From Peptostreptococcaceae bacterium VA2 (GTDB taxonomy: Bacteria > Bacillota > Clostridia > Peptostreptococcales > Peptostreptococcaceae), in the NCBI GenBank assembly GCA_000686145.1, contig JMMB01000007.1, positions 806,001 through 870,000 of the forward strand: a stretch of DNA of 64,000 nucleotides, written 5' to 3'. The translations under genes and the position numbers were made by a program. The notes beneath the pieces are model-generated. The model saw only the letters and a program-made list of their open reading frames with translations, did no database searches and had not been told where the DNA came from. Shown here piece by piece: positions 62,520-64,000 of the stretch. How positions within the stretch are numbered: the stretch's first letter is position 1; every line of letters begins with the position of its first letter.

Positions 62520-62549
62520 TTGTAAAAAAAGGGAAAAATATGGTATAAT
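62520..62549 (+). promoter_or_regulatory. Extended -10 promoter for the agr-like operon
   Basis: TTGTAA at 62520-62525, an 18-base spacer, and TGG-TATAAT with the -10 at 62544-62549. Confidence 0.75.
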
Positions 62550-62584
62550 TCATTGTAGGAGAAACTTACTCAAGGAGAAAAATT

Positions 62585-63082
62585 ATGATTAATTCAGATA
62601 TTATTTATGCTGTATTAAGAACAATTCCAGAAAGTATAATGATAATATTTGCTGGATTAATTTTGTTAGGTATAAAAAAAGATAAATTATATATATTAAA
62701 AAATGGAATTTTATTAGGAATTATTATATCTGTAATAAGAAAATTGCCAATTGGTTTTGGAATACATACAGTATTATCTATGATAACAGTGGGTGTAATA
62801 TTATTTATAATATCAAAGGATAGACTTTTAAATTCTATTATAGCAACTTGTCAAATTTGGATAGCATTGTCATTAAGTGAAGCAATATATATAATGATAG
62901 CTACTAAAATTATAAAAATACCATTTAATATTCTAATAAACAATATAGGTATAAAAGGAGCTGTCACAACACTTCCATCTTTAGTAATATTTTTAGGATT
63001 ATCTTTATTGTTTAATAAGATACAAAATAAAATAAAAAAAATATTAAAAGAAAAGTTAAAAGAAAATACTGAAATTGCATAG
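62585..63082 (+). CDS. Sensor-like membrane protein of an agr operon, no kinase domain
   Basis: This 165-residue protein has about five hydrophobic spans and a short basic helix at the C-terminus (residues about 142-165). LRTIPESIMIIFAGLILL and IRKLPIGFGIHTVLSMI recall the N-terminal membrane region of GHKL (AgrC-type) histidine kinases of clostridia, but the protein stops before any dimerisation or ATPase domain. It is the first gene of the operon with agrB and agrD (12-base gap, SD AAGGAG). It may be a peptide-binding receptor or chaperone for AgrB; function is not known. The resemblance is from pattern only. Confidence 0.62.
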   Translation: MINSDIIYAVLRTIPESIMIIFAGLILLGIKKDKLYILKNGILLGIIISVIRKLPIGFGIHTVLSMITVGVILFIISKDRLLNSIIATCQIWIALSLSEAIYIMIATKIIKIPFNILINNIGIKGAVTTLPSLVIFLGLSLLFNKIQNKIKKILKEKLKENTEIA

Positions 63083-63094
63083 TAGGAGAGTAAT

Positions 63095-63748
63095 ATGGGG
63101 GCTATAGATCATATATCAAAAGATGTATCAGAAAAATTAGGGAATAGATTAGATAAAACTGAAGAAGAAAAAGCTGTTTTGAATTATGGCTTATTTATAA
63201 TAATACATACTAGCTTAGCCATTATTTTAACATTTATAGCAGGTCTAGTTACAGGCATGGTAATTGAAATGATGACAATAACATTTTCAGCAGCATGGAT
63301 GAAAAGGTATTCAGGTGGTGTCCATGCAAATACACCAAATAGATGTTTAATAATCGGAATAATAGTATCACTTATATTCTGTTTTCTGTATAAAACAGAA
63401 ATAATTTTTTTAGAAGATAATATGTTATTACTTATATTGCTGATAGGTATTATATTATCATATATAGTACTTTATTATAAATGTCCTGTAGGCTCTAAAA
63501 ATAAACCATTAAAAAAAGAATCTACTAGAAGAAAATTAAGAAAAAAAGCATTTACACTAATTAATGTATACTCGATAGCTATATTAGCTGGATATTTACT
63601 ATATAAAAAGCAAGATATATATATATTAAAAGATATAATAAGTTGTATATGGCTAGGATTGATGTTGCAAACTTCAATGCTTACTAAATTTGGTCAAAGG
63701 TTAATTATATTATTAGATGCTATGTTAGGAAAGTTGAAGATATCATAA
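63095..63748 (+). CDS. agrB: AgrB-type peptide-processing protease
   Basis: This 217-residue membrane endopeptidase cuts the AgrD precursor and forms the thiolactone ring. The catalytic pair is H77 and C84 in YSGGVHANTPNRC, at the same positions as in S. aureus AgrB. Several hydrophobic spans surround it. The SD is TAGGAGAG. The short agrD gene follows 70 bases later, past a small hairpin. It is a complete AgrB; no homologue of agrC or agrA is in the window. Confidence 0.95.
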   Translation: MGAIDHISKDVSEKLGNRLDKTEEEKAVLNYGLFIIIHTSLAIILTFIAGLVTGMVIEMMTITFSAAWMKRYSGGVHANTPNRCLIIGIIVSLIFCFLYKTEIIFLEDNMLLLILLIGIILSYIVLYYKCPVGSKNKPLKKESTRRKLRKKAFTLINVYSIAILAGYLLYKKQDIYILKDIISCIWLGLMLQTSMLTKFGQRLIILLDAMLGKLKIS

Positions 63749-63758
63749 TTTTGTATTC

Positions 63759-63779
63759 TAAGATAATTTAATTATCTTA
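63759..63779 (+). repeat. Small hairpin between agrB and agrD
   Basis: TAAGATAA-TTTAA-TTATCTTA, an 8-bp stem about 10 bases past the agrB stop codon. It may stabilise or separate the agrD part of the transcript. Confidence 0.55.
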
Positions 63780-63818
63780 AGATAAATTAATAAAACTTTA
63801 TTAAAAGGGGGATTTAAA

Positions 63819-63938
63819 ATGAATTTTTTATTTGACACGATATCTAATATGATATCAAGCGTTTCACAAGGTGCTTCTACATTCTGCGTACTGGTATTTT
63901 TCGAGCCAGAGGTACCAAAATCATTAAGAGAAGAATAA
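63819..63938 (+). CDS. agrD: AgrD autoinducing-peptide precursor
   Basis: This 39-residue peptide was found by eye downstream of agrB. It has an amphipathic N-terminal leader (MNFLFDTISNMISSVSQ), a core centred on C23 and an acidic C-terminal recognition tail FEPEVPKSLREE that matches the family's conserved E-x-E-V-P-K. By alignment with S. aureus AgrD the thiolactone ring would be C23-V-L-V-F27, with a tail of a few residues such as AST-F before C23. The SD AAAAGGGGG is 6 bases upstream. The exact N-terminus of the mature peptide cannot be told from sequence. Confidence 0.93.
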   Translation: MNFLFDTISNMISSVSQGASTFCVLVFFEPEVPKSLREE

Positions 63939-63943
63939 TAAAT

Positions 63944-63981
63944 AATTAAAACCATAGGGATATATCCCTATGGTTTTAATT
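63944..63981 (+). terminator. Strong terminator after agrD
   Basis: AATTAAAACCATAGGGA-TATA-TCCCTATGGTTTTAATT, a perfect 17-bp stem 6 bases past agrD. It closes the operon before any receptor gene. Confidence 0.92.
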
Positions 63982-64000
63982 AAATTATATATTAGGTGAT

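Follow-up and report, generated by a model that had tools for sequence, protein, structure and literature searches.

The agr-like genes at the end of the window, i.e., of the whole 64,000-nucleotide stretch analyzed here, which comes from a clostridium related to Romboutsia, form a conserved unit of four genes. They encode a stand-alone membrane protein called X below, an AgrB-type membrane peptidase, an AgrD-type thiolactone peptide precursor, and an enzyme in which a membrane domain, denoted 6TM, precedes GGDEF and HD-GYP domains. The pairing of X with a second-messenger enzyme in place of the usual sensor kinase points to a possible short route by which a secreted peptide could reach c-di-GMP. 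The interpretation favored here, to which we give slightly better than even chances on the basis of sequence comparisons, is that X receives the peptide of this Agr-type operon and acts on c-di-GMP by way of the 6TM protein, with no phosphorelay. AgrB would process AgrD and help export the peptide, the latter would bind X on the outer face, and X in complex with the 6TM domain would shift the balance between diguanylate cyclase and phosphodiesterase, whereby cell density would set c-di-GMP levels. The direction of this shift is left free, both catalytic motifs of the enzyme being intact. If this interpretation is correct, peptide quorum sensing would be joined to c-di-GMP with neither a kinase nor a response regulator in between, and receptor and output would be separate, exchangeable parts.

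All features of the operon lie on the forward strand of the window, which covers positions 806001-870000 of contig C7 (G000). A putative sigma-A-type promoter with an extended -10 element, read directly at positions 62520-62549 (TTGTAA-N18-TATAAT, with TG preceding the -10 hexamer), stands ahead of the gene for X (62585-63082, 165 aa), and 18 of 24 loci of the family have an exact TATAAT at a distance of 15-75 nt ahead of X. The X gene is followed by agrB (63095-63748, 217 aa), agrD (63819-63938, 39 aa), and a terminator-like hairpin, possibly an attenuator, at 63943-63982. The first-pass annotation had described a promoter, a membrane protein, an AgrB with H77 and C84, and a 39-residue AgrD, all of which were found at these positions. 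It had missed the next gene, that of the 6TM-GGDEF-HD-GYP protein, which lies at and beyond the window edge: the edge falls inside the operon, and the first bases of this fourth gene occupy positions 63996-64000. The gene begins 66 bp past agrD, with candidate starts at GTG 63996 and ATG 64005, and it runs to 65678, outside the window, giving an open reading frame of 560 codons from the GTG or 557 from the ATG. Since the locus continues in this manner, a possible output is encoded beside X, AgrB, and AgrD. The claim that AgrC and AgrA are missing was borne out, as the open reading frames of the flanking DNA include no agrC or agrA in the 14 kb downstream of agrD, an interval in which the adjacent AgrC and LytTR-type AgrA that characterize a complete agr locus (agrBDCA) do not occur. 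A response regulator/kinase pair, OmpR-type by eye, lies about 3.3 kb further on.

X is a real gene. Its homologs are present in 25 of 71 genomes of the family, and its dN/dS ratios relative to its two nearest relatives are 0.32 and 0.36, which together rule out that it is a truncated agrC pseudogene; a 26th match, in G040, is a weak one within a 906-aa frame that is not X, and it was excluded. With the same two relatives, the ratios are 0.18 and 0.23 for AgrB, 0.25 and 0.09 for AgrD, and 0.10 and 0.09 for the 6TM enzyme. Residues R12, P15, E16, R52, P55, G59, H61, and P131 are kept in all 24 aligned close X sequences, among which E99 is nearly invariant. In a broader set of 39 X sequences, conservation is complete at E16 and G59 and almost complete at P15, R52, H61, and P131, while R12 is not kept. 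An AlphaFold2 model based on an alignment of eight sequences (pLDDT 85.1, pTM 0.78) comprises five long helices, spanning residues 6-28, 34-53, 58-77, 81-108, and 131-164. By positive-inside reasoning on this five-helix model, for which the lysines of the first loop and of the C-terminal tail serve as the basis, the polar residues R12, E16, R52, H61, and E99 would face the outside.

X itself yields nothing above cut-off in Pfam or NCBIfam scans, and the 39 relatives give only scattered weak matches to Pfam, the best of which has an E value of 0.0037. Its profile finds no match among PDB sequences up to an E value of 10. A search of the model against PDB folds returned 25 Foldseek matches, none with E ≤ 0.001, and in a second look at 174 chains the best Z score was 5.1, which is in the range expected by chance for helical bundles. 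The fold of X was therefore not placed. In viral contigs, 14 pattern matches to X were found and none was confirmed.

Profile comparisons link X to a specific group of sensor kinases. A broad X profile aligns over 157 columns with the full-length SPOB_a-GHKL kinase of L033 (hhalign probability 97.7, E 2.4e-12), and at the class level it matches frames of about 456 aa with E values of about 1e-23, including that of L270, which was confirmed as a SPOB_a-GHKL kinase; fused X-kinases thus exist. X matches the N-terminal membrane region of these AgrC-like kinases, some 150-160 residues in length, but it is devoid of their further membrane helices, dimerization helix, and ATPase, and Pfam and NCBIfam scans of X detect neither part of the kinase core (SPOB_a, GHKL ATPase). 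In contrast, the comparison of X with nine canonical-looking AgrC-type sensors from its own genome was not significant (hhalign probability 13.8, with 0.2 and 2.2 for the controls). The proposal made in the first-pass annotation, that X is the membrane half of an AgrC-type kinase without the kinase, therefore holds for the SPOB_a-GHKL kinases and is not supported for the canonical AgrC sensors.

More distant relatives of X complete this picture. Among 42 such loci in the order, a count that leaves out G019 and G078 (frames of 722 and 85 aa, respectively), X lies beside a short SPOB_a-GHKL kinase in 17, as labeled with a kinase profile that was itself built from 5 of those same 17 loci. These kinases are 285-310 aa long, one of them being cut by a contig end, and AgrB is present in 16 of the 17 loci, which are predicted to encode split AgrC proteins. 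Because its relatives adjoin, or are fused to, GHKL kinases, X is a sensor half that can be detached from AgrC-like kinases of one class, and not detectably from the canonical AgrC. The same two arrangements support a receptor role. Of the functions that had been offered for X from the sequence, that of a separate peptide receptor fits best.

In the other 25 of the 42 distant loci, neither AgrB nor a kinase is found beside X, which implies that sensing of AgrD peptides is not a necessary property of the X fold. A gene for a RibU-like transporter, identified by eye, comes after X in 12 of the 16 of those loci that were inspected. Stand-alone X relatives without AgrB or kinase (L110, L111, L112, L115, L117, and 20 more) sometimes adjoin Tex, MFS, amidohydrolase, or TsaE-like genes, all named by eye. 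Two X genes each are present in L109, L114, L255, L260, and L261, possibly as two receptor subunits or as paralogs. L271 (2843-3878) and L272 (2582-3625) encode proteins of 286 and 294 aa in which the X domain is joined to extra helices and a short tail, with no ATPase; an AgrD-like peptide follows, with a cysteine in one case and a serine in the other, and there is no AgrB match in 6 kb.

The linkage of X to the three other genes is strict in the family, in which the order X-AgrB-AgrD-6TM, on one strand, is found in all 25 loci that have X. A scan of genomes for the first three genes, as suggested at the outset, recovers them in the same order throughout these family loci, with the 6TM gene as a regular fourth. 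In 19 of these 25 loci, sigG lies upstream of the unit; the other six keep the same order, which rules out that the linkage is a mere effect of location next to sigG. Two genes look frameshifted, AgrB in G012 (L125) and X in G065 (L137), through decay or sequencing error.

Among the 297 genomes of the order, the X profile matches 36 at E < 1e-20 and the 6TM profile 39, with the weak 6TM matches of G001 and G220 left out of the count. All 36 genomes with X, which represent four taxonomic families, have a 6TM match within 2.6 kb, downstream of X and on the same strand in 35 and upstream in G182, and a close-type AgrB is present in 34. In G174 and G119 (L103 and L107), the 6TM enzyme comes directly after X with no AgrB or AgrD there, and both genomes carry other AgrB relatives elsewhere. 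The remaining three genomes with a 6TM match are G048, whose locus is masked with N, G031, where it is at a contig start, and G121, which has no X beside it. As the 6TM profile was built from genes adjacent to X, this overlap arises partly by construction: its rows come from 30 of the same 36 genomes. Two rows of its alignment (L128 and L134) extend a few residues into GGDEF. Related genomes, moreover, are not independent. What the count indicates is that, in the genomes searched, 6TM copies away from X are rare.

The class-level data offset this circularity, because they are independent of the building of the profile. Across 391 genomes, the 6TM profile was found in 21, of which 19 had not already been counted, and in 14 of these 19 X lies within 2.2 kb; in one of the 14, G343, a 183-aa gene separates 6TM from X, and the search for AgrB there was negative. 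G349 is split over two contig ends in a manner that fits the unit, and in G332, G359, and G386 the 6TM enzyme lies apart from X, which is accompanied by AgrB elsewhere. In G335 (L265), the operon consists of AgrB, AgrD, and the 6TM enzyme with no X, a second copy of the 6TM protein stands on its own in G634 and in G617, and L257 combines X with a 6TM kinase in a place where AgrB and AgrD are absent. X matches in the class amount to 63 genomes, and wider regions were read for those with 6TM matches and for five others. The four-gene unit is thus kept in four families of the order and in further ones of the class, while its upstream neighbors change.

These exceptions have a bearing on what X does. 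One could envision that the 6TM domain itself is the peptide receptor and that X is an accessory, as a helper of AgrB and AgrD, a modulator, or an insulator. The AgrB-AgrD-6TM operon of L265 and the 6TM proteins found alone in G121, G634, and G617 are consistent with such an arrangement, which we nevertheless consider unlikely, as X is kept with the 6TM protein in L103, L107, and L257, where AgrB and AgrD are absent, and serves as the sensor domain in fused or split kinases that have no 6TM match. That X might protect the cell from its own peptide or assist export by AgrB, with no signaling through it, is very improbable: in those three loci X goes with a 6TM output and not with AgrB or AgrD, and it is homologous to sensor halves of kinases, although it is co-encoded with AgrB and AgrD in the operon and presumably has about the size of certain membrane proteins that confer immunity. 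The immunity factor and the AgrB partner considered in the first-pass annotation consequently fit less well than a receptor.

Both components predicted to produce the signal carry the features expected of them. AgrB scores 119 bits against PF04647 (cut-off 23), and H77 and C84, the His/Cys pair that has the catalytic role in AgrB proteins, are invariant in 23 of 23 aligned family sequences. AgrD scores 26 bits against TIGR04223 (cut-off 19), and it remains below the cut-off of the Pfam model of staphylococcal AgrD, with 15.5 bits against 22.7. Its core lies around STFCVLVFFEPE, and C23, E31, and P33 do not vary among the 23 sequences aligned, the cysteine being followed by an acidic, proline-rich tail. 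Both alignments cover 23 of the 25 loci, without L015 and L030, in which the genes are apparently broken or were missed by the search pattern. AgrB and AgrD thus have the residues on which the making of a thiolactone peptide depends. Among named relatives, the one nearest to AgrB, at 88% identity, is from Romboutsia sedimentorum.

The putative output protein combines a GGDEF domain (PF00990, 170 bits, cut-off 23.8) that has a GGEEF motif with an HD-GYP-type domain (HD_5, PF13487, 148 bits, cut-off 27.2) that has HDIGK and HHERYDG; diguanylate cyclase and phosphodiesterase domains are thus predicted, both with intact catalytic motifs. Such a tandem is shared with other membrane GGDEF-HD-GYP proteins, from which this enzyme differs by an input domain that is genetically tied to X and AgrBD and for which Pfam scans of several of the proteins gave nothing above cut-off, with weak matches to 6TM_PilS and DUF4118 alone. 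A low-confidence model of the R. sedimentorum counterpart (pLDDT 65.7) has about six helices in its membrane part. The GGEEF motif is present in all 21 6TM proteins that were read further (L004 and L118-L137), and the HD-GYP motifs of L128 are lost to a contig end. By motif search, GG[DE][DE]F is missing from the 6TM enzymes of L252, L253, L266, L268, and L269, so cyclase activity is not universal.

The 6TM domain is also found with other outputs. At the class level, GGDEF-HD-GYP predominates, as determined by Pfam scan for L252, L253, and L266 and by motif for the others, and the 6TM domain carries PAS-HisKA-HATPase in L254, L255, L257, and L262 (Pfam scan) as well as in L260 and L267 (by motif), while 6TM and kinase are separate genes in L261. 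In the order, a protein of L102 (4486-5901) has HisKA-HATPase fused to the 6TM domain, in the place taken elsewhere by GGDEF-HD-GYP; its gene sits upstream of X-AgrB-AgrD, with a gene of the opposite strand between them. No response regulator was seen by eye among the neighbors in L102, L254, L255, L257, L260, L261, and L262. In these relatives, the pair formed by X and the 6TM domain would drive a kinase. We consider it an even bet that the loci represent a widespread form of quorum sensing in Clostridia, in which a detached X would read an Agr-type peptide and plug into interchangeable 6TM outputs, GGDEF-HD-GYP or HisKA, the former making a direct connection from peptide to c-di-GMP without a phosphorelay.

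How the enzyme is expressed relative to the peptide may depend on the hairpin between agrD and the 6TM gene. Its two arms (63943-63960 and 63965-63982) form an 18-bp stem closed by a 4-nt loop, so that the 17-bp terminator announced after agrD is real as a hairpin, with a slightly longer stem, but probably does not end the operon. The 22 nt that separate the stem from the ATG of the 6TM gene are too short to accommodate a promoter, on which ground an operon end at this point was rejected; the 6TM gene is probably read through the hairpin. A candidate hairpin was found in 22 of 22 folded family loci, i.e., of the 25 without L015, L030, and L031, and in 8 of 8 loci from other families, the weakest of which has a 7-bp stem (L101). 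In an alignment of 19 of the 22, from which L026, L027, and L029 were left out, 10 of 14 base pairs have changed at both positions in ways that preserve pairing. The data fit an attenuator, which would possibly hold the message of the enzyme, and thereby its level, below that of the peptide.

The system shares with Agr quorum sensing, as represented by staphylococcal agrBDCA and C. difficile agr2, an AgrB-type peptidase and an AgrD-type cysteine precursor encoded in one operon. It differs from those in that its locus has neither AgrC nor AgrA and holds a sensor-like half as a protein of its own, along with a GGDEF/HD-GYP enzyme. Among the papers listed by full-text literature searches, as judged by titles and the openings of abstracts, none describes an operon in which AgrBD is accompanied by a detached sensor half and a GGDEF-HD-GYP enzyme, which is a limited negative. 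Complete agr2 and partial agr1 loci have been described in C. difficile (PMC3754575). The agrB1D1 locus of that species resembles the present one in that it is reported to have no apparent cognate agrC or agrA; its receptor is called elusive, and AgrD1 is reported not to activate RgaS-RgaR (PMC10602386). Agr loci that lack a known receptor, such as Agr1, represent an open puzzle (PMC10602386), for which the X-6TM locus offers a concrete candidate class of receptors, with an output measurable by c-di-GMP reporters. More speculatively, such a pathway might have consequences for sporulation in relatives.

The C. difficile precedent (PMC10602386) would also be compatible with an orphan GHKL kinase that senses the peptide from elsewhere in the genome, the c-di-GMP enzyme being a mere neighbor or target. 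Candidates are not lacking: the search for GHKL kinases elsewhere in the genome, advised in the first-pass annotation, yielded 34 HATPase_c_5 matches, of which 13 have at least 67 bits, and two of those 13 adjoin other agrB genes on contig C5. The retention of the four-gene unit across families, while its upstream neighbors change, argues against such an orphan, which we regard as improbable.

Contig C5 of the same genome carries further agr-like genes. By reading, L005 (1496-4321) contains genes for a LytTR-type regulator, a GHKL kinase, an AgrD-like peptide of 46 aa with a serine-rich core, and AgrB; genes for radical SAM proteins and ABC transporters lie next to them. Two copies each of AgrB and the kinase, with equal scores, are present on this contig, the second copy being near G000:C5:68288, and a fixed-offset comparison of the two contig ends found 6509 of 12000 bases to be identical.
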